Assembly (NCBI GenBank): GCA_937872065.1
Contig: CALMRA010000150.1
Location: 1 to 34,103 of the forward strand
Direction: 5' to 3'
DNA length: 34,103 nt
From: an uncultured Eubacteriaceae bacterium
GTDB lineage: Bacteria; Bacillota; Clostridia; Eubacteriales; Eubacteriaceae
The notes below the pieces were generated by a model, which did not search any database, was not told the origin of the DNA, and saw only the letters and a list, made by a program, of their open reading frames with translations. Positions 4,698 to 30,517 of the stretch are shown piece by piece. Within the stretch, counting starts at the first letter, position 1. Every line of letters starts with the position of its first letter. A program made the position numbers and the translations under genes.

Positions 4698-5576
4698 ATG
4701 AACAGCATGACAGGTTACGGCCGGGCCGGACTCAAGAACGGAAACCGGGAGATCACGGTGGAAATCCGGACGGTCAACAACAGATACAGAGACGTTTTCA
4801 TCAAAGCGCCGAGGACGTTTAACGGGATCGAGGACAGGATACGCAGCGAGGTGTCGGACAGACTGAACCGCGGACGGATCGAAATCTTTATCCGGGCTGC
4901 CGGAGGAGACGAAGGCGGGCGGGTCATCTGCGACAGAAAGCTTGCCAAAAGCTATCTTGAAGCGCTGGACGAGCTCAAGCGGCTCGACTCGATGATTTCC
5001 CAGAATATCGATCTGGAGCTTCTGGCGAAGTTTCCCGATGTGATCCGTCTTGAAGACGAAGAACCGGACTGCGAGGCGCTGTGGCTGGAAACGCGGCCCG
5101 TGCTGGATCAGGCGCTCGAGCAGGTCTGTTCGGCGCGTGCGGTGGAAGGCGGCGCGCTGCAGAACGATATCCTGTCCCACGGACAGGCGCTGTCCGAAGG
5201 ACTTGCGCAGATCGTGGAGCTGGCGCCGCAGCAGCTTGAAAAGAGCACAAAGGCGCTCCGAAGCCGCGTGATGACGGCTCTCGGGGATACGGGCATCGAC
5301 GAGACGAGACTTCTCGCGGAAACGGCCGTACTGGCCGACAAGCTCGCCGTCGACGAAGAGACCGTTCGTCTGGGCTCCCACCTCGAACGTCTCGCGGAGC
5401 TGTGCGCGGAGGAAGACGAGCCCGTCGGACGCAGACTGGATTTCCTCGTACAGGAGATCAACCGCGAGATCAACACGATCGGCTCGAAAACCGACAGCAT
5501 CGAGATTACCGGCCTCGTCGTCGAAATGAAGGGCGAAGCGGAAAAAATCAGGGAACAGGTGCAGAATATTGAATAA
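4698..5576 (+). CDS. yicC: YicC/YloC family endoribonuclease
   Basis: 292-residue member of the YicC/YloC stress-protein family, whose characterised members are endoribonucleases. The diagnostic N-terminus MNSMTGYGRA is present. The conserved C-terminal DUF1732 block (about residues 245-292) contains the family pattern from RRLDFLVQEINREINTIGSK to the terminal REQVQNIE. GGAGG lies 5 bases before the ATG. In Bacillus yloC is followed by remA and then gmk; here the end of yicC overlaps the start of gmk directly, so remA is missing from this position. Its RNA targets cannot be judged from sequence. Confidence 0.93.
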   Translation: MNSMTGYGRAGLKNGNREITVEIRTVNNRYRDVFIKAPRTFNGIEDRIRSEVSDRLNRGRIEIFIRAAGGDEGGRVICDRKLAKSYLEALDELKRLDSMISQNIDLELLAKFPDVIRLEDEEPDCEALWLETRPVLDQALEQVCSARAVEGGALQNDILSHGQALSEGLAQIVELAPQQLEKSTKALRSRVMTALGDTGIDETRLLAETAVLADKLAVDEETVRLGSHLERLAELCAEEDEPVGRRLDFLVQEINREINTIGSKTDSIEITGLVVEMKGEAEKIREQVQNIE

Positions 5577-6207
5577 GGGAATGCTGCAGCGAAAATATAC
5601 GGATAACAGAGGACTACTTGTCGTCGTATCGGGACCGGCGGGAGTCGGAAAGGGCAGTATCTGCAGAGAGCTGGCCCGGACCGACGGCGGTCCGGACGTC
5701 TCGATTTCTGAAACCACCAGGCCGATGCGCCCGGGGGACGAAGCGGACGTAACGTATTATTTCGTGGACAGAGAAAAATTTGAATCGCGCATCAGCGAGG
5801 ATTATTACCTCGAATGGGCGCGGGTATACGATAATTACTACGGGACGCCGAGAGCCCGTATCGAAGAGAAGCTTGAGGCCGGTACGGACGTGATTCTCGA
5901 GATCGATCCCCAGGGAGCGGAAAGTATCCGGAAGAATTTCCCGTCGGCGGTCACGGTCTTTATCATGCCGCCGTCGGTGACGGAGCTGCGGGCCCGGATC
6001 ACGGGACGAGGTTCCGAAACGGAGGATCAGCTCGTCAAGCGGCTTTCCTGCGCGAAGGACGAAATCGAACAGGCGCCCCGCTACGACTATATTATCGTGA
6101 ACAGAGAAAACAGTCTGGGCAGATCGGTCTCCGAGCTTCAGGCCGTCATTACCGCCGAACACTTGAGAACCTCGAGGATTACGGCGCAGGACAGCCGGGA
6201 AGACTGA
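5569..6207 (+). CDS. gmk: Guanylate kinase
   Basis: Phosphorylates GMP to GDP with ATP. 212 residues, close to the usual length of about 205. The P-loop is GPAGVGKGS (residues 22-30). The GMP-binding region has SETTRPMRPGD, and the later EIDPQGAESIR block corresponds to the family's LEIDVQGA motif. TTG at 5569 is preferred because AGGTG lies 7 bases upstream, whereas the next ATG (5581) has its only purine-rich site directly against it. The TTG start overlaps yicC by 8 bases, suggesting coupled translation. The P-loop ends GKGS rather than the common GKST/GKSS, a mild variation. Confidence 0.95.
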   Translation: MNKGMLQRKYTDNRGLLVVVSGPAGVGKGSICRELARTDGGPDVSISETTRPMRPGDEADVTYYFVDREKFESRISEDYYLEWARVYDNYYGTPRARIEEKLEAGTDVILEIDPQGAESIRKNFPSAVTVFIMPPSVTELRARITGRGSETEDQLVKRLSCAKDEIEQAPRYDYIIVNRENSLGRSVSELQAVITAEHLRTSRITAQDSRED

Positions 6208-6239
6208 CAGTCCGGCTTACATTTATATAAGGAGTACAG

Positions 6240-6548
6240 ATGAAACCAAATATCTCAGACAGCTACACAAAAAAAGGCATGCGCTATCCGGCTCTGAACG
6301 ACCTGATCGCGAAAGCGAACAATAAATACGAACTGGTGCTGGCGACCGCCAAACGGGCGAGAGAAATCGTCGACGGAGCGGAACCGCTGGTCAAGATCAC
6401 AATCGACAATCCGATCTCTATTGCGACGGCTGAAATCGCCGAAGGTCTTGTGACGCTCGAAAATCCGTGCTTTGATGAAGAACTCGGCGAAATTGCGGAA
6501 CCTTCAAACCTTAAAGCGGCTTCCGGGGGAACGACCGATAACGACTGA
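6240..6548 (+). CDS. rpoZ: RNA polymerase omega subunit
   Basis: 102-residue omega subunit that helps assemble and stabilise RNA polymerase by clamping the beta-prime C-terminus. The conserved core is present: MRYPALNDLIAKANNKYEL near residues 14-32, then the ATAKRAREI helix. The C-terminal 30 residues are acidic and variable, as is usual. AAGGAG lies 6 bases before the ATG. In Bacillus coaBC follows rpoZ; here priA starts only 5 bases after the rpoZ stop, so coaBC is absent from this locus. Confidence 0.93.
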   Translation: MKPNISDSYTKKGMRYPALNDLIAKANNKYELVLATAKRAREIVDGAEPLVKITIDNPISIATAEIAEGLVTLENPCFDEELGEIAEPSNLKAASGGTTDND

Positions 6549-6553
6549 TTCCG

Positions 6554-8716
6554 GTGAAAATCGCACAGATCTTCATTGATCAGAAGAATAAAAGACTGGA
6601 CAGGACCTTTGACTATCTGGTCCCGGACAGCGCCGGGCCCGGAATGCGCACCGTTCAGCGTTTCGGTGGAGAATCCAGAATCACCCGCGGGTTCATTGTC
6701 AGAATCATCGAGCATTCCGAATATGAAAAGAGTCTGAAGGAGGTCCGCGCCGTTCTCGATGCGGAGCCCGTCCTGACTCCGTTGCAAATCAAGCTCTGCC
6801 TGGAACTCAAGCAGAGCTGTTTCTGTCTTTTCTGGGATGCGCTGTCGTTTTTTACCGCGTGGACGCCGCTGCGCAGAAGCGCCGGCGGCCTCGTTCCGTA
6901 CGCGATTAAGGACGTGACCTGGATCGCGTTTGAAAAGGAACCGGAGCGTGCGGGTCCCGTTCAGGAGGAACTGCTGGTCCTGCTCAGAAGACACGACTGG
7001 TCTTATCCGGAGCTCAGAAAGCGGATGCCCAATCTGAGGGCGCCGCTCAAGTCTCTGCACGACAAGGGAGCTGTACGCAAGTATACCCGGCGCCCCGCCG
7101 TACTGGACCCGCCCGCCCAGATCCCCGAGGATTATGTGTATTCCGAGCATCTGGTTCCCGAGGCGGAGGGGGAAGAAAAGCCGGTCTTTATTCTGGCAGA
7201 AACGGATAAGGAGCTGTTCTCTCTGATCGGCTCGCTGATCACGCCGGAACGCCAGCTGATGATCGTGTCGCCGTCGGCGGAGGATGCGAAACGTCTGGCC
7301 GACGGGTTTGCTTCCTGTTCCGGGATCGTACCGGAGGTCTATCACGGAGCAGATCCGCAGGAAAAGCGATTCGCCTTCGCCCGGAATTTTCGCGACGGCC
7401 GAATAAAGGTCGCAAGCGCGACGGCGGCCGGACTTTTCGTTCCGTTCGGAGAAACGCCCCCCGCGATTCTGGTCACGGACGCGGCCAGCGAGCGTTATCA
7501 TCTGCCGGGGACCCTCAGTCTTGACACCGTGAAGACAGCTCAGCGGCTTTCCGCCCTCAGCGGAGCGCCGCTGGTACTGACGGACAGGCTGCCGTCGGTG
7601 CTCGCGTCGTATAAAACCGAAGAAGCCGGCTTCGAAGGCGGTGAAACGGATACGGCGCAGTCAAAATGGACGGACCGGACGAGAGAGTTCAAAAGACTCT
7701 TTCCGCTCCGGCCGGAGGAATTATGCCTTGACGAGATCCACGTTATCCGCATGGATTCCGAGCTTCGGGCGGGCAATACGGGAATACTCTCGGGAATGCT
7801 CGAGGCCAGCATAGGCGAATCACTGAGAAACGGAGAGCGAAGCGTTCTGCTGCTCAACCGCAAGGGCTACGCTGGACATCTGTTCTGCCGCAGCTGCGGC
7901 TACAGCTTCCACTGTCCCGAATGCGGGCTGCCCCTTCAGACGGATAAAAGCGGGAGATGGCTGTACTGCCGGGACTGCGGCTGCAGAATCGAACGCCCGG
8001 ACAAATGTCCCGCCTGCGGCAGTCTGCGTCTGCGCGAGAGCGGACTCGGGATCGAAAAGGCCGCCGCTCTGGTTGAGAAGCGCTTCAGGCCTGATTTTCC
8101 CGATGTCAGGGTCGGAATTTATCCCGATGATGACGCGGACATCCTGATCGGAACCCAGAAGCTTCTGGGCGCGGCGGATTTCTCGAATGTCGGGACAGCG
8201 GCGGCGCTTCTGATCGATTTCGACATCAGCTTTCCTGATTACCGCGCCGAAGAGCGGGCTTACAGGCTTTACAGCAAGTTTTTTCGCAGAGTCTGTGAAA
8301 ACGGACGGCCGGAGCGCTTCATACAGACGTATCTGAGAGATTCGGAAGCGGTCAGAGCCGCTGCCGGCGCGCCGGCGCGTTTTCTCGAGCAGCAGGCGGA
8401 ATACCGCAGGCTCATGAGGCTGCCGCCCTACGGAGAGCTCTTTGTGTTTACCCTGAGAACGGAAAATGTCGAAACGGCGCGCCGTGAAAGCGCGATCCTC
8501 CACGACAGGATCGAAGGAATCTGCGAGGCGGAGAAGACTGACGCGAAGGTCTATCCGGTGTTCGGGCTCAGGAACCAGTCCGGCGCCTGCCGGTTTACGG
8601 TCAGGAGCGAGAGTCCGGAATTCAGAGATCTGCTCGCGCGTCTGTATGCGGACGGCGAGATCGAAGCTCTGGTCTGCAGCGTCTCGCTGAACATCGATCC
8701 TCCGGGCATTTTATAA
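6554..8716 (+). CDS. priA: PriA-like primosomal protein lacking helicase motifs
   Basis: 720-residue protein with PriA architecture. The N-terminal 3'-DNA-binding domain is recognisable (RTFDYLVPD at 17-25, DAEPVLTP at 69-76). The zinc-binding insert keeps eight cysteines as four pairs (445/448, 454/457, 472/475, 485/488), and the C-terminal domain has RRLMRLPPYGELF. The helicase motifs are not recognisable. Where a GxTGSGKT Walker A would lie, the chain reads VFILAETDKELFSL (211-224). The DEEH box is replaced by VTDAASERYH (307-316), SATPS by LTDRLPS (342-348), and the GRAGR motif by FFRRVCENGRPE (576-587). The frame is intact and its composition matches its neighbours, so it looks selected rather than decayed. 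It may load the primosome without unwinding DNA. GTG start, no strong ribosome site. Confidence 0.85.
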   Translation: MKIAQIFIDQKNKRLDRTFDYLVPDSAGPGMRTVQRFGGESRITRGFIVRIIEHSEYEKSLKEVRAVLDAEPVLTPLQIKLCLELKQSCFCLFWDALSFFTAWTPLRRSAGGLVPYAIKDVTWIAFEKEPERAGPVQEELLVLLRRHDWSYPELRKRMPNLRAPLKSLHDKGAVRKYTRRPAVLDPPAQIPEDYVYSEHLVPEAEGEEKPVFILAETDKELFSLIGSLITPERQLMIVSPSAEDAKRLADGFASCSGIVPEVYHGADPQEKRFAFARNFRDGRIKVASATAAGLFVPFGETPPAILVTDAASERYHLPGTLSLDTVKTAQRLSALSGAPLVLTDRLPSVLASYKTEEAGFEGGETDTAQSKWTDRTREFKRLFPLRPEELCLDEIHVIRMDSELRAGNTGILSGMLEASIGESLRNGERSVLLLNRKGYAGHLFCRSCGYSFHCPECGLPLQTDKSGRWLYCRDCGCRIERPDKCPACGSLRLRESGLGIEKAAALVEKRFRPDFPDVRVGIYPDDDADILIGTQKLLGAADFSNVGTAAALLIDFDISFPDYRAEERAYRLYSKFFRRVCENGRPERFIQTYLRDSEAVRAAAGAPARFLEQQAEYRRLMRLPPYGELFVFTLRTENVETARRESAILHDRIEGICEAEKTDAKVYPVFGLRNQSGACRFTVRSESPEFRDLLARLYADGEIEALVCSVSLNIDPPGIL

Positions 8717-8810: not shown

Positions 8811-9278
8811 ATGGCATTAAGACAGATAAGAATGGACAGCGATCCTGTTCTCAGAAAACAGACGCGCAGCATCGACGTGATCAGCGACAGGATCCGGGAG
8901 CTTGCGCAGGACATGTTCGATACGATGTATCAGGCGGAGGGTGTCGGGCTTGCGGCTCCCCAGGTCGGAATCCTGAAGAAAATCGTCGTCATCGATACGG
9001 GAGAAAATCCGATCGTTCTGATCAATCCGACGGTATCCGAACCGGAAGGGTCGATCATTATGGAGGAAGCCTGCCTGAGCTTTCCGGAACGTTCCGGTCA
9101 GGTCGACCGGCCTGAAAAGGTCAAGGTCACCTTTACGGATCTGGAGGGCGGCCGGCAGACGCTGGAGTGCGAAGGACTCCTGGCGCGCGCGGTCTGCCAT
9201 GAGGTCGATCACCTGAACGGGATCGTCTTCCTTGACAAGGTCATCGAAGGGACACTCCATGACGACAGGAACGCATAA
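8811..9278 (+). CDS. def: Peptide deformylase
   Basis: Removes the formyl group from the initiating methionine of new proteins, using a metal ion. 155 residues. All three family motifs are present: GVGLAAPQVG (44-53), EACLSFP (86-92, with metal ligand Cys88; the usual form is EGCLSVP) and HEVDHLNG (130-137, with ligands His130 and His134 and catalytic Glu131). GGGAG lies 5 bases before the ATG. It overlaps fmt, the enzyme that adds the formyl group, as in most bacteria. The Gly-to-Ala change in motif 2 is unusual but does not remove a catalytic residue. Confidence 0.95.
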   Translation: MALRQIRMDSDPVLRKQTRSIDVISDRIRELAQDMFDTMYQAEGVGLAAPQVGILKKIVVIDTGENPIVLINPTVSEPEGSIIMEEACLSFPERSGQVDRPEKVKVTFTDLEGGRQTLECEGLLARAVCHEVDHLNGIVFLDKVIEGTLHDDRNA

Positions 9279-10254
9279 CGGCGAAAACCCTGTCCGCATC
9301 GTTTTTATGGGCTCCTCCGATTTTGCAGTCCCCGCGCTCAGAGCCCTGGCGCAGGACAGCCGGTTTGAGGTGACGCTTGCGGTCGTTCAGCCGGACCGTC
9401 CCAACAGCCGGGGGAAAAAGATCGTTCCGCTGCCCGTAAAGAGGGCGGCGGAAGAGCTGGGGATTCCCGTCTATCAGCCGGAAAAGGTCTCGTCGGAAGG
9501 GGAAGAGCTGCTGCGGGAACAGGATGCGGAGCTCTTCGTCGTCTGCGCCTACGGACAGATTCTGAAGCAGAATATCCTCGATATTCCGAAGAGCGGTTCG
9601 CTGAACATTCACGGCTCGCTCCTTCCTCATCTGAGAGGAGCTGCGCCGGTTCACCGGGCGATACTCAACGGAGACGACCGGTCCGGCGTGACGATCATGC
9701 TCCTCGACGCGGGAATGGATACGGGGGATACGCTCTCGGAAGCCTCGGTTCCGGTTACGGAGACGACCACCGCGGGCGCGCTGCACGACAGCCTGGCGGA
9801 TATCGGCGCCGGGCTTCTCCTCAGAACGATCCCGGAATACCTTGACGGCAGAATAACGCCGGTTCCGCAGGATGCGGACCGGGCGGACTACGCGGATAAA
9901 ATAGAAAAGACCGAAGGCTGCGTCGACTGGACCCTGGATTCAGGGGCGGTCGTCAGACGCATCAACGGAACGGATCCCTTCCCCGGCGCCTATACGATGC
10001 TCGAACACGGCGGGAAGACTGTCAAGATAAAGGTCTTCAGTCCGGAGGCGCTGCCCGGCTTTAAGGGCGGAGACGCGGTTCCCGGAACCGTTGTGACGGC
10101 GGACTCGAAGGAAGGCCTGACAGTCAGGACCGGCAGCGGAGCTGTAAGGATCGGGGAGGTTCAGCTGCCCGGTCGAAAACGGATGAAAACATCGGATTTT
10201 TTCAAGGGAAATTCAATCGTACCGGGTACAATACTCGGAGCACAACAGGCCTGA
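9259..10254 (+). CDS. fmt: Methionyl-tRNA formyltransferase
   Basis: Transfers a formyl group from 10-formyl-tetrahydrofolate to Met-tRNA(fMet). 331 residues from the chosen start. The N-terminal catalytic domain shows IVFMGSSDFAVPAL, the NIHGSLLPHLRGAAP motif with the catalytic Asn-His pair, and VTIMLLDAGMDTGD. A smaller C-terminal OB-like domain follows from about residue 215. ATG at 9259 has AAGGGA 6 bases upstream and overlaps the end of def by 20 bases. A TTG at 9232 would extend the frame by 9 residues but has less support. Translational coupling with def is likely. Confidence 0.95.
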   Translation: MTTGTHNGENPVRIVFMGSSDFAVPALRALAQDSRFEVTLAVVQPDRPNSRGKKIVPLPVKRAAEELGIPVYQPEKVSSEGEELLREQDAELFVVCAYGQILKQNILDIPKSGSLNIHGSLLPHLRGAAPVHRAILNGDDRSGVTIMLLDAGMDTGDTLSEASVPVTETTTAGALHDSLADIGAGLLLRTIPEYLDGRITPVPQDADRADYADKIEKTEGCVDWTLDSGAVVRRINGTDPFPGAYTMLEHGGKTVKIKVFSPEALPGFKGGDAVPGTVVTADSKEGLTVRTGSGAVRIGEVQLPGRKRMKTSDFFKGNSIVPGTILGAQQA

Positions 10255-19431: not shown

Positions 19432-21489
19432 ATGAGACCAGAAACACCGGTAACAGAGTTGAAAGGGGTCGGCCGGGTCAGAGCGCAGAAGCTTCACGAC
19501 GCGGGAATCGAAACCGTCGGTGGACTCCTGAATATGCTCCCGAACCGCTATGAGGACCGCACGGTCTTCGGCGGCTTCGACCTGCCGGTACCTGATACGC
19601 CCGTCACGGTTCGCGCGTGCGCGGGGGCAAAGGGGACAGTGCGCCGGATCCGGCGCGGCATGTCCCTTTTTGTTTTGCCTCTGATCTGGAAGTCGGCTGA
19701 CGGGAAGACCGTCAAGGCGGAGGCTGTCTGGTTCAACCAGCCCTATCTGTCCGGGACCTTTGCCCCGGGCGAGGAGCTTCTGCTGTTCGGCAGGATCACG
19801 AAAAAGGACAAGGAAGCCTTCAGAATGTACGCTCCGAAATTTGCGCGCGCCGCGGACGAGGAGACCTTTGTCCGGATCACGCCTGTCTACCCGAAGGTGG
19901 ACGGAATCGGCCCGGGGGTTCTGAGCGGAATGATCCGCAGAGCCTGGGACGATCTTGACGCCGGCATGACCGATCCTGTTCCGGATCATCTGCGCCGGGA
20001 TTACGGTCTGCCGGACTACCGGGAGACGATCCGGGGAATCCATTTTCCGGAAAACAGGGAGATGCTCGACGCCGCGATGCGCCGGCTTAAATTCGAAGAA
20101 GGAATCAGAATTGCGACGGGGATTCTCAGGATACGCTGCTCGGGCGGCGGGACGAGAGCCGTCGTCCGCGATTTCGATCAGGTCCGCGCCTTTGCGGCTG
20201 GTCTTCCCTTCGAACTGACCGGCGCCCAGAAACACGTTCTCGAAGAGATTTTCGGCGATTTCTCGGGCGACCGGGCGATGAACCGGATGCTTCAGGGAGA
20301 CGTGGGCAGCGGGAAGACGATTATCGCGGTGATCTGCGCCTATCAGATGGCGCTGTCCGGGTATCAGACCGTCTATATGGCGCCGACGGAGATTCTCGCG
20401 GAGCAGCATGCGAAAAATTTCGCCGCGCTGCTGGAGCCCCATGGGATACGAACCGCGATGCTGACGGGAAGCCTGAAGCCTTCCGAGGCCCAACGGGTCC
20501 GGGAGGGTCTGGAAAACGGAGAGATTCAGGTGGCTGTCGGCACCCATGCTCTGATCCAGGAAAAGACGCATTTTTATAATCCGGGTCTCGTCATCACGGA
20601 CGAGCAGCACCGGTTCGGAGTGCGCCAGAGAGGCCAGCTGTCGAACAAGGGGGGCTGTCATACCCTCGTCATGAGCGCGACGCCCATTCCGAGAACGACC
20701 GCGCTGACGCTGTACGGAGACCTGGACCTGTCGGTCATCGACGAGCTTCCCGCGGGAAGAAAGAAAATCAAGACGTATTTTTATACGACGAAGGCGCTGA
20801 CGAAGATATACGGGTTTATCGAAGATCAGATCCGGGAGGGCCATCAGGCCTTTATCGTCTGTCCCTTTATCGAAGAATCCGAGGAAATGCCCGAGGTTGC
20901 GGACGTTACGCGTGTCTGCGCGGATATCCGGAAATTTGCCGGAAAGCGCTTTAAAACGGAAGCTCTGCACGCAAAGCAGAAGCCCGAACAGAAGGAACGG
21001 GTGATCCGCCGCTTTACGGAGGGAAAAACGGATGTGCTCGTGGCGACAAGTATTATCGAGGTCGGTATTGACGTCGCCAATGTCACGACTGTGCTCGTGA
21101 TGAGCGCGGATCGTTTCGGACTTGCACAGCTCCATCAGCTGCGGGGAAGGACCGGACGCTCCGGCACCCAGAGCTACTGCTTCCTCGTATCGGACAATCT
21201 GAACGAGACGACTGTGGAACGCATGAAAATTATCGTGAACAGCACGAGCGGTCAGGAGATCGCGATGGCGGACTACAGACTGCGGGGGCCGGGAGAATAT
21301 TTCGGCTTCCGGCAGCACGGATACGGAGGACTGCGGCTGCTCGATCCGCTGGCGGAACCGGAGCTCTTCGACAGCTGTGTGAAGGCTGCCCGGGAGATCT
21401 ACGATTCAGGCAGCGCGGAGGACATGATCTTCAAGGACCGGCTCCTGTCGGAATTTGACGAGAAGACGCGTGAGATCAGCATGACGTAA
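19432..21489 (+). CDS. recG: ATP-dependent DNA helicase RecG
   Basis: 685-residue branch-migration helicase that remodels stalled replication forks and Holliday junctions. The N-terminal wedge domain begins with ELKGVGRVRAQKL and includes an OB fold. Helicase motifs are complete: Walker A QGDVGSGKT (288-296), DEQH (390-393), SATPIPRT (415-422), and the C-terminal EVGIDVANVTTV and QLHQLRGRTGRS blocks, followed by the RecG C-terminal FGFRQHG region. Unlike PriA upstream, every motif is canonical. ATG at 19432 follows the yloV stop with no spacing and no clear own ribosome site, so translation is probably coupled. Confidence 0.96.
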   Translation: MRPETPVTELKGVGRVRAQKLHDAGIETVGGLLNMLPNRYEDRTVFGGFDLPVPDTPVTVRACAGAKGTVRRIRRGMSLFVLPLIWKSADGKTVKAEAVWFNQPYLSGTFAPGEELLLFGRITKKDKEAFRMYAPKFARAADEETFVRITPVYPKVDGIGPGVLSGMIRRAWDDLDAGMTDPVPDHLRRDYGLPDYRETIRGIHFPENREMLDAAMRRLKFEEGIRIATGILRIRCSGGGTRAVVRDFDQVRAFAAGLPFELTGAQKHVLEEIFGDFSGDRAMNRMLQGDVGSGKTIIAVICAYQMALSGYQTVYMAPTEILAEQHAKNFAALLEPHGIRTAMLTGSLKPSEAQRVREGLENGEIQVAVGTHALIQEKTHFYNPGLVITDEQHRFGVRQRGQLSNKGGCHTLVMSATPIPRTTALTLYGDLDLSVIDELPAGRKKIKTYFYTTKALTKIYGFIEDQIREGHQAFIVCPFIEESEEMPEVADVTRVCADIRKFAGKRFKTEALHAKQKPEQKERVIRRFTEGKTDVLVATSIIEVGIDVANVTTVLVMSADRFGLAQLHQLRGRTGRSGTQSYCFLVSDNLNETTVERMKIIVNSTSGQEIAMADYRLRGPGEYFGFRQHGYGGLRLLDPLAEPELFDSCVKAAREIYDSGSAEDMIFKDRLLSEFDEKTREISMT

Positions 21490-26990: not shown

Positions 26991-27218
26991 ATGAATTTTA
27001 TGAGCGAAATGGCGGGATCCGCATGGTCCATCGTTCCGATCCTGCTGATTCTGTTTCTGATGGCCGGTATCGTCATGGCTTTTTTTCTGAAGGCCAAGAT
27101 CGAAGAGATCACAGTTTATCTGAAAAGCATCGCGACGTCGCTGGAAAAGCTGACGGACCGTGTCGATGAAGATGCCGAAGGCTACAGACGGAAAAATGAA
27201 CCGCCCCGCGGCTATTGA
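26991..27218 (+). CDS. Small single-helix membrane protein
   Basis: 75-residue protein. Hydrophobic helix at about 13-33 (SIVPILLILFLMAGIVMAFF), then an amphipathic helix or short coiled coil (about 35-60, KIEEITVYLKSIATSLEKL) and a charged tail. This layout resembles small DUF948-like membrane proteins, but I do not assign a family. The ribosome site AAAGGGAG lies 7 bases before the ATG. The adenine methyltransferase starts about 16 bases downstream, or overlaps it if an earlier start is used, so the two are probably co-transcribed. Function unknown. Confidence 0.7.
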   Translation: MNFMSEMAGSAWSIVPILLILFLMAGIVMAFFLKAKIEEITVYLKSIATSLEKLTDRVDEDAEGYRRKNEPPRGY

Positions 27219-27234
27219 ACGTAAGAGGACTTCT

Positions 27235-29160
27235 GTGAAGGAAGCGGCTGTATACAGGAATCTGTCCGAACTGTTTAAGGACGGCGAACAGATCGAGGGA
27301 CTCTATACCCTTGTCGCGGGGATCCTGTACGGCAGGCTCACAGGCTGCAGCCCGGGTCCGGAACAGATTTTTAAGACGGGGCTTCGCGGGCTTGCGGAGC
27401 GTCTCACAGGAGAAAATATCACCGATCCGGCATTCGGCGCAGCGGGTATCGAATGCCCGGCGCTGTCGGAGGCGGAGTTTGACGATGTCCGCCGGGCTGT
27501 CGCCGGACCTGAAGCCTTCGGCGCCGTCCGAACCGCTCTGCTCGATCTTCGGGAGCGGAAGGATTCGGGAAGCTTCTACACGCCCTCCGCGCTGGCGGGA
27601 CTTGTCGCAGAAGCAGTTCCTTCTCTGCCGGACGGGCGTATTCCTGAGGTCTGCGATCCGGCCTGCGGGGGCGGAGCGCTGCTGCTAGCGGTTCTCCGAG
27701 AGCTGACGGAACGGGGAAAGACGTCCCGGGAGGTCATACCGCATCTGTACGGGTGCGATATCGATCCGGATGCCGTCTATGCGGCCCGGTGCGCGCTGAT
27801 CTTCTCCGGAACCGGAACGGTTTATCCGGAGGGACTGACTGTCTGCGATTCGCTGACTGAGCCTCCGGATGAACGCCGGTACGATCTTGTCGTGATGAAT
27901 CCGCCGTGGCTGGGCAGACGCGCTTCAAAACAGCTGGCGCCCGCGCTCAGAGACCGCTTCTCGAGGGTCTTCACCGACAAAAGCGACTGTTCGTACTGTT
28001 TCTATCAGCTTGCGTTCGAGTCACTGCGGCCCGGCGGCACTCTGTGCGCGCTGGGATCACGCTATTTCTTCGAAGCGGGAAGCGCCGCGGATCTCAGGTC
28101 CTATCTAACTTCGTCGTTTATAATCGAAGAGATTGCCGATTTTTACGGCCAGAGGGTTTCGGAATGGCCGGGTGTCGATCCGATGCTTCTGACCGCAGCT
28201 TCCGCCGGAGAACATGTCCGGACGAAGCCAGCGCGGATCCTCAGACCTGCGTCGCTTCCGGGCGGGAGCCTGCGCGCGCAGGATGTCGCCGGCTCGATTG
28301 AAAACGCCCGGAACGGAGTGCGAGCCGGGACTGTCCCGTTTACGCTGTACGAAAGCAGGATGCCGGAACCCGGAAGCGGGGCGACATGGAAGCTCAGCGA
28401 TCCCGGTCAGCTCCGGCTGTCGGGATTGTCGGGTCTTACGGGAGGCAGGCTCGGAGATGTCTGCAGGAGCTTTCAGGGAGTCATCACAGGCTGCGACCGC
28501 GCGTTCGTACGCGGCGCGGACGATCCGGACTGCCGGAAGCTTGCAGCCTACGTCCGGCCGTGGATCAAAAATTCAGATGTTCTGAAGGACCGGATCGGGG
28601 CCGCACGGAAGCGTCTGCTTTATATCGGCAGGGATGCGCCCGAGGACAGCACGCTTGTCCGCGCACTCTCGCCGTGGCGGGACAGACTCGAGCGGCGCCG
28701 TGAAACGGCGTCGGGACGGACTCCGTGGTACAGCGTTCAGTGGGAACGGGATCCGGAGCTTTTCCAGTCCGTGAAGATCGTCTGGCCCTACAAGTCGGAC
28801 CGGAACGCGTTCCGCGTCGACAGGACCGGGGCGTTCTTTTCCGCGGACGTATACGGAATGACCGTAACCGACCCGGAATGGGATCCGGATCTTCTCGCAG
28901 CGCTGCTGAACACGCCGTTTTATGACAGGCTGTTCAAGAGCTTCGGGAAGAAGCTCGGCGCTTCGCTGTACGAATATTACCCGAATACTGTAATGCGGCT
29001 CAAGCTTCCCGATCCGAAGGCGCTTCGTCAGGCGCTGAACGAAACGGGCGGGCCGCCTTTGATAAACGGAGCCGGCTCGGGGCCGGCCGTTCCGTCTTCC
29101 GATATGCTTGAGGAAGCGATGAAAAAACTGACGGCGCCCCGGAACGGGGCTGGAAAGTGA
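27235..29160 (+). CDS. Solitary N6-adenine DNA methyltransferase, TaqI/Eco57I class
   Basis: 641-residue protein. The catalytic domain has GSFYTPSALA (motif X, about 112-121), VCDPACGGGALL (motif I, about 139-150), GCDIDPDAV and NPPW (motif IV, 222-225), the gamma-class order of adenine methyltransferases. The C-terminal half (about 385-610) resembles the TaqI-type specificity domain, with FQGVITGCDRAF, YVRPWIKNSDVL and a final LLAALLNTPFYDRLF region. No nuclease domain or restriction gene is seen nearby, so it looks like an orphan methyltransferase. GTG at 27235 has GAGG 6 bases upstream; ATG at 27196 is an alternative. Base composition matches its housekeeping neighbours. rarA follows after one base. 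Confidence 0.85.
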   Translation: MKEAAVYRNLSELFKDGEQIEGLYTLVAGILYGRLTGCSPGPEQIFKTGLRGLAERLTGENITDPAFGAAGIECPALSEAEFDDVRRAVAGPEAFGAVRTALLDLRERKDSGSFYTPSALAGLVAEAVPSLPDGRIPEVCDPACGGGALLLAVLRELTERGKTSREVIPHLYGCDIDPDAVYAARCALIFSGTGTVYPEGLTVCDSLTEPPDERRYDLVVMNPPWLGRRASKQLAPALRDRFSRVFTDKSDCSYCFYQLAFESLRPGGTLCALGSRYFFEAGSAADLRSYLTSSFIIEEIADFYGQRVSEWPGVDPMLLTAASAGEHVRTKPARILRPASLPGGSLRAQDVAGSIENARNGVRAGTVPFTLYESRMPEPGSGATWKLSDPGQLRLSGLSGLTGGRLGDVCRSFQGVITGCDRAFVRGADDPDCRKLAAYVRPWIKNSDVLKDRIGAARKRLLYIGRDAPEDSTLVRALSPWRDRLERRRETASGRTPWYSVQWERDPELFQSVKIVWPYKSDRNAFRVDRTGAFFSADVYGMTVTDPEWDPDLLAALLNTPFYDRLFKSFGKKLGASLYEYYPNTVMRLKLPDPKALRQALNETGGPPLINGAGSGPAVPSSDMLEEAMKKLTAPRNGAGK

Positions 29161-29161
29161 T

Positions 29162-30517
29162 ATGCAGCAGCAGAATTTTTTTACACAGAACTATGAACAG
29201 CAGATCAGAAGCAGGGCGCCGCTGGCGCTGAGGATGCGTCCCGAAACGCTGGACGAATTCGTCGGGCAGGGACAGATCGTCGGATCCGGCCGCCTGCTGA
29301 CGCGGCTGATCAAAGCCGACAGACTTTCGTCGGCAGTTTTCTACGGCCCCCCGGGAACGGGAAAGACGACCCTGGCGAAGATCATCGCCGGTTCGACGCA
29401 GGCCGATTTTTATGAGATCAACGCGGTGACCTCCGGAAAGAAGGAAATGACGGAGGTGCTCGAGAAGGCGAAGAACAGCCTTTCCGTATACGGGAAGCGC
29501 TCGATTCTGTTTATCGACGAAATTCACCGCTTTAATAAGGCGCAGCAGGATCTTCTGCTGCCCAGCGTCGAAGAGGGACTGATTATCCTGATCGGCGCGA
29601 CTACTGAGAATCCGTACTTCGAGATCAACTCTCCGCTGCTGTCCCGCTCGACGATCTTCGAGTTCAGACGGCTTACGGACGGGCAGGTCGTCGAGGTCAT
29701 GGAGCACGCGCTGCAGGATCCCGACAGGGGCTTCGGGCGGATGAAGGTTGAAGCAGAACCTGACGCGCTGGCTCACCTGGCTGCGGTGGCGGGAGGCGAC
29801 GCGAGACGGGCGCTCAACGCCCTTGAGCTCGCCGTTCTGACCAAGGACAAGGACGAGACCGGAACGATCCGTATCGACCTTGAAACGGCTCAGGAATGCA
29901 TACAGCAGAAAGCGGTTGTCTACGACAAGGACGGCGACTCGCATTACGATACGATCTCGGCCTTCATCAAGAGCATCCGCGGCTCCGATCCGGACGCCGG
30001 GCTGTTCTGGCTGGCCAAAATGCTCGAGGCGGGAGAGGATCCGAAGTTCATCGCGAGACGGCTCGTGATTCTCGCGTCCGAGGATGTCGGAAACGCGGAG
30101 CCCCAAGGACTTCCGGTCGCGGTTGCCGCGGCCCAGGCGGTCGACATGATCGGACTGCCTGAAGCTCAGCTCAATCTCGCCCAGGCGGTGACGTTTCTTG
30201 CCGGCGCACCGAAAAGCAACGCGAGCTGCGTCGGGATCATGGAGGCGAGACGGGCGGTCCGAAACGAATCGGACGGACAGGTGCCCGCGCATCTGAAGGA
30301 CGCGCACTACGCCGGAGCGAAAAAGCTCGGACGCGGCAGCGAGTACCGCTATCCTCACAGCTATCCGGGAAACTGGGTCGCTCAGGATTATCTGCCCGAG
30401 GATATCCGGGGGACGGTGTTTTACCGCCCGACGGAGAACGGCGCGGAAGAAGCTGTCAGCCGGCGGCTTGAACGCTATCGCAGCGCGGATCATGGGAACA
30501 GAAAGGATAAAAAATGA
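29162..30517 (+). CDS. rarA: Replication-associated recombination protein RarA (MgsA)
   Basis: 451-residue AAA+ clamp-loader-like ATPase that acts at stalled replication forks. The RPETLDEFVGQ entry motif (26-36), Walker A YGPPGTGKTT (61-70), Walker B FIDEIHRFNK (117-126), sensor GATTENPYFEIN and LLSRS arginine-finger region are all present. The C-terminal tetramerisation domain ends with the typical RGSEYRYPHSYPGNWVAQ block. It starts one base after the methyltransferase stop and its stop overlaps the M16C peptidase start by 4 bases (ATGA). Confidence 0.96.
   Translation: MQQQNFFTQNYEQQIRSRAPLALRMRPETLDEFVGQGQIVGSGRLLTRLIKADRLSSAVFYGPPGTGKTTLAKIIAGSTQADFYEINAVTSGKKEMTEVLEKAKNSLSVYGKRSILFIDEIHRFNKAQQDLLLPSVEEGLIILIGATTENPYFEINSPLLSRSTIFEFRRLTDGQVVEVMEHALQDPDRGFGRMKVEAEPDALAHLAAVAGGDARRALNALELAVLTKDKDETGTIRIDLETAQECIQQKAVVYDKDGDSHYDTISAFIKSIRGSDPDAGLFWLAKMLEAGEDPKFIARRLVILASEDVGNAEPQGLPVAVAAAQAVDMIGLPEAQLNLAQAVTFLAGAPKSNASCVGIMEARRAVRNESDGQVPAHLKDAHYAGAKKLGRGSEYRYPHSYPGNWVAQDYLPEDIRGTVFYRPTENGAEEAVSRRLERYRSADHGNRKDKK

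Follow-up and report, generated by a model that had tools for sequence, protein, structure and literature searches.

The window analyzed here is a stretch of 34,103 nucleotides from an uncultured Eubacteriaceae bacterium, and at positions 6554-8716 of its forward strand it carries priA, encoding a putative helicase-dead PriA (pseudohelicase) of 720 amino acids with a GTG start and a reading frame free of stops and frameshifts. The gene lies between gmk and rpoZ upstream (5569-6548, forward strand) and def and fmt downstream (8811-10254, forward strand), and this gmk-rpoZ-priA-def-fmt order is common to Eubacteriaceae and its sister families; the operon position of priA has been kept. The protein is identified as PriA by the NCBIfam model NF004066 (E 4.4e-56) and matches the PriA chains in the PDB (E ~2e-24). 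It also matches TIGR00595, the equivalog model of the active PriA helicase with its SF2 motifs, with an E-value of 7e-48, yet it fails that model, reaching 163 bits against a curated cut-off of 230 bits. A search of the window's genome (2.55 Mb, 97% complete) for a second PriA, as advised with the original prediction, finds only this single copy, and a second canonical PriA is not seen in closed Eubacteriaceae genomes either.

The original prediction, made from the DNA sequence of the window, held that Walker A, DEEH, SATPS and GRAGR are all replaced by unrelated sequence in this protein, and an alignment with 22 canonical PriAs from four sister families confirms this. At the former motif I, or Walker A (the ILAETDK region, residues 213-219; 7190-7210), the P-loop is lost and shortened in both the alignment and the structure model, with a gapped IL----AETDK standing where canonical proteins have GVTGSGKT. 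On the same forward strand, TDAA replaces DEEH at motif II (residues 308-311; 7475-7486), DRLPS replaces SATPS at motif III (residues 344-348; 7583-7597) and RRVCE replaces GRAGR at motif VI (residues 578-582; 8285-8299). The broader statement that all recognizable helicase motifs are lost thus stands for motifs I, II, III and VI but not for motif V, whose core G533-T534-Q535 (GTQ; 8150-8158, forward strand) is retained. We looked through the rest of the protein for a working P-loop or DExH and found none: scanning all of its residues gives no occurrence of GxxxxGK[ST], and a DEIH string at residues 393-396 (7730-7741, forward strand), beside a low-confidence insertion present only in the window protein, is rejected as a Walker B motif and taken as chance, being downstream of the motif III site and missing from the same-genus UBA7485 protein. 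Missing motifs could in principle mask a highly diverged nucleotide site; the best explanation of the aligned residues is that the window gene is an ortholog of priA whose product has probably lost ATP binding and hydrolysis.

The claim that the DNA-binding domain, the eight zinc cysteines and the C-terminal domain remain in an open frame is borne out by Pfam, the alignment and the open reading frame. The 3'-end-binding domain (residues 1-105; 6554-6868, forward strand) is matched by PriA_3primeBD (PF17764) at the N terminus with an E-value of 2.5e-12 and 46.9 bits (cut-off 22.7). Its FDY at residues 19-21 aligns with the FDY of E. coli PriA, and Y21 is invariant across the family, while some other residues of the domain vary in g7, the most decayed genus. 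The zinc region (residues 445-488; 7886-8017, forward strand) retains every one of its eight cysteines (445, 448, 454, 457, 472, 475, 485 and 488), which are invariant in 29/29 family members, and the winged helix and C-terminal domain are kept as well. Among 130 columns that are near-invariant in canonical PriAs, the window protein keeps 55, distributed by region as 5/7 in the 3'-binding domain, 14/21 in the zinc region and 12/51 in lobe 1.

Structure prediction and superposition on PriA, another check proposed at the outset, gives a PriA fold over the full length. The AlphaFold model (27 sequences; pLDDT 80.8, pTM 0.78) superposes full-length on solved PriA structures, and five PriA entries lead its PDB matches, with Z of 26-31 and up to 665 residues aligned, after which Z drops to about 14 for helicases of other families. 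Against 4nl4, a PriA with ADP, we find Z 28.1 over 656 residues at an rmsd of 3.4, and against 6dcr Z 31.3 over 571 residues. At the P-loop position the model places a strand (211-214), three residues and then a helix (218-228); read from this predicted secondary structure rather than from coordinates, there is no room for a usual P-loop between the two elements.

To see how far this state extends, we searched 61 genomes of Eubacteriaceae and sister families of the same order with TIGR00595. All 37 sampled Eubacteriaceae genomes, from nine genera and including closed single-contig genomes, score 115-399 bits, and none of their best matches starts before profile position 6, the start lying within the P-loop or beyond it. 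The sister families score 514-682 bits from profile position 1, apart from two draft assemblies (G050 and G058) that hold a PriA fragment only or no PriA. Reading the sequences themselves gives the same division: motifs I, III and VI occur in 0/29 family proteins and motif II survives at most as a remnant, and the 22 PriAs from four sister families are all canonical. The loss is therefore not a peculiarity of the window's genome, as might have been supposed, and alignment with relatives dates it to before at least nine genera diverged. The degenerate form is found in the named records of Eubacterium callanderi, E. barkeri, E. aggregans and Pseudoramibacter alactolyticus and of Acetobacterium fimetarium, A. 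tundrae, A. bakii, A. paludosum, A. dehalogenans and A. wieringae, with UBA7485 the closest of the named records to the window protein; the degeneration recurs in isolates and in closed genomes, and we therefore reject an assembly or MAG artefact. In the same scan the motifs are kept in an Anaerofustis MAG and in nearly all Chloroflexota matches, and they are also kept in two other MAGs labeled Eubacteriaceae, whose PriAs group with the sister families. Across 391 genomes of about 86 families we see no whole-family loss of PriA motifs elsewhere in the class; eight weak single genomes that we followed up there turn out to carry a fragment at a contig end, a split frame or a zinc-less PriA, or to yield no PriA. 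We searched the literature for a loss of the PriA helicase in Acetobacterium or Eubacterium and found no such paper. Judged by its sequence, PriA of the Eubacteriaceae thus appears to be a genuine pseudohelicase, fixed across the family and absent from the literature searched.

The wider survey also turned up several unusual PriA loci. One genome of another family (G300; L140 / L146, contig C9:58160-59428, reverse strand) encodes in one frame a PriA of about 612 amino acids that aligns with the profile over 1-217 and 274-481; its zinc region is apparently deleted and its Walker A kept, the mirror image of the window protein. In G280 (L139 / L145, C5:29181-30714) priA is present as two adjacent open reading frames, possibly through a frameshift or a sequencing error. 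No PriA is found in G127, a draft rated 100% complete, or in G389 (0.9 Mb), which may be a true absence or an assembly gap.

The history of the loss can be followed within the family. In a tree built with a quick method, with some long branches and a midpoint root, a branch with full support sets the family apart from the other PriAs, which fits, most simply, a single loss of the PriA motor at the base of Eubacteriaceae. Horizontal gain of the gene from Actinobacteria is disfavored by model scores and by the operon position. Acetobacterium PriA still has the P-loop lysine (GASKY) together with DDEH, the E. callanderi-type and E. barkeri-type proteins carry arginine in its place and retain DEE, and the proteins of g1, g2, g4 and g7 keep least of the old motifs; the vestiges in Acetobacterium and Eubacterium suggest the course that the decay may have taken. 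The arginine-for-lysine state in Eubacterium is the same change as that in Deinococcus PriA.

Substitution rates point to a gene that is still constrained. Pairwise dN/dS (NG86) is 0.085-0.164 within the family and 0.053-0.185 for canonical pairs, and dividing dN of lobe 1 by dN of the 3'-binding domain gives a ratio above 1 in 11/12 family pairs (median ~1.5) and below 1 in 7/8 canonical pairs (median ~0.7); as the pairs are partly non-independent and dS is close to saturation in several of them, we read these numbers as indications and not as a formal test. They indicate that family priA is probably under purifying selection and, from the higher ratio in family pairs, that the former motor is relaxed relative to the DNA-binding domain yet still constrained. 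Conservation is found at 50 positions shared by at least 27/29 family members, and at an 80% threshold three columns carry derived conserved states: serine of motif III has become aspartate (26/29; D344 in the window protein) or glutamate (3/29), a winged-helix alanine has become glycine in 29/29 (G134), and a lobe 2 alanine has become isoleucine in 24/29.

Helicase-dead PriA is itself already known elsewhere, and the comparison helps to place the present case. Actinobacterial PriA, described by the PRK14873 models, has no helicase motifs, a property that the window protein shares as far as recognizable motifs go. The window protein scores 190 bits with a PRK05580 model and at most 91 bits with any PRK14873 model, and is thus not of the actinobacterial type; from this better score and from an operon typical of its own class, the loss in Eubacteriaceae is most likely independent of the actinobacterial one, and PriA of this family is most likely an independently derived pseudohelicase. 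The tested precedent is Deinococcus PriA, which has no ATPase or unwinding activity and binds DNA forks and DnaB (Lopper et al., 2015, PMC4504706). PriA of Deinococcus-Thermus resembles the window protein in that motifs I and II are degenerate throughout the clade while PriA architecture and DNA-binding domains are kept, but it belongs to another phylum, its activity has been tested whereas Eubacteriaceae PriA is known from sequence, and in Deinococcus the Walker A lysine is changed to arginine whereas in the window protein the entire P-loop is gone, as are motifs II, III and VI. Unlike Deinococcus-Thermus, the degenerate clade here is one family in a class with otherwise canonical PriAs. E. 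coli PriA has the same fold and domain order as the window protein; the wild type is an active 3'-5' helicase with PriB, DnaT and DnaC as partners, whereas the window protein is apparently motor-less. The E. coli priA300 mutant (K230R) has no helicase activity, and its cells are viable and assemble primosomes (PMC4504706; PMC4752480), so that restart is possible in the absence of PriA ATPase.

Genes for putative primosome partners are retained. In B. subtilis, a PriA with intact helicase motifs works in a PriA-DnaD-DnaB-DnaI primosome; DnaD-like and DnaI-like genes are also kept in the window's genome, where a single DnaD-like protein, carrying two DnaB_2 domains, is seen adjoining an AAA+ DnaI-like loader (L135) with an intact GKPGTGKT. 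This answers the earlier call to look for DnaD, DnaB and DnaI, and DnaD-family matches occur in 60/61 genomes, in family and sisters alike.

Taken together, we consider it quite probable that a single loss in the Eubacteriaceae ancestor deprived PriA of its ATPase and that the protein has persisted as a scaffold for replication restart, feeding a DnaD-like/DnaI-like primosome. The precedents of E. coli K230R and Deinococcus are what lead us to a fork-binding loading scaffold. Forked DNA and the leading-strand 3' end would be recognized by the winged helix together with the N-terminal domain and the zinc region; the DnaD-like protein and the AAA+ loader of DnaI type would then take over the fork from PriA and load the replicative helicase. 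PriA itself would not unwind the lagging strand, the clearing of which might be either skipped or left to other nucleases or helicases. For PriA of this family, the absence of ATPase activity, the binding to DNA, the role as a scaffold and the transfer of the fork are inferred rather than observed. The loading scaffold of the original prediction is in this respect the best reading, in line with the retained DnaD-like and DnaI-like genes and with purifying selection; its further proposal, compensation by RecG, finds no support here. The helicase domains of RecG are intact, the gene is nearby (19432-21489, forward strand) and the enzyme works on the same forks in E. coli, so that RecG, or RecQ, might have assumed the unwinding step. 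However, recG is an ancestral downstream neighbor, equally present in the canonical sister families, at some 12-15 kb from priA, and sited elsewhere in some family genomes such as the closed G017. RecQ is present in four of the nine sampled family genera and missing in the other five (g1, g2, g4, g5 and g7), including the window's genome and G017, and neither protein shows a compensation pattern across family and sisters. For E. coli, moreover, it has been proposed that RecG prevents the unwinding of joint molecules by PriA, so that helicase loss may be simply tolerated (PMC4752480). We therefore regard such a takeover as improbable.

A decaying pseudogene, in a lineage where restart no longer needs PriA, would account for the very long branches and weak scores of g1, g2 and g7, but it is hardly credible for a gene whose frame is open in every family member read, whose eight cysteines are invariant, whose conserved positions, dN/dS of about 0.1 and operon position are as described above, and whose loss of motifs is older than the divergence of at least nine genera. 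That PriA is still an ATPase through unrecognized motifs draws on the lysine and DDEH of Acetobacterium and on the arginine and DEE of other genera; it is very unlikely given that the P-loop threonine and GRxGR are gone in all family sequences, that lysine to arginine alone abolishes the ATPase of E. coli PriA (PMC4504706) and that the window protein has neither K/R at the lysine position nor DE nor GRxGR. The derived residues particular to the family (Asp/Glu in 29/29, Gly in 29/29, Ile in 24/29) could instead mark recruitment to a new task, with the replacements in the old motor forming a new site for, e.g., a loader or a regulator. With just three such columns, which may merely stabilize an empty nucleotide pocket, and no known partner, this seems improbable, and it is similarly a long shot that the old ATP pocket was rebuilt into a regulatory or partner site (the motif III Asp/Glu and the winged-helix Gly) serving an ATP-independent, family-specific restart pathway.

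The preferred reading, a scaffold without a motor, bears on a general question, as the helicase motifs of PriA are conserved almost everywhere and yet laboratory-grown E. coli can do without the activity. A whole family without the motor, with living intermediates and intact sisters, makes the purpose of the PriA helicase testable by comparison and genetics. The family includes culturable, free-living acetogens (the Eubacterium callanderi group and Acetobacterium) with a DnaD/DnaI primosome of the Bacillota type. The automatic label 'replication restart helicase PriA' would also be incorrect for Eubacteriaceae genomes. Elsewhere in the window, an Eco57I/TaqI-type DNA adenine methylase gene (27160-29157) adjoins a gene for an MgsA/RarA-like ATPase (29162-30514), a family linked to stalled forks in other bacteria.
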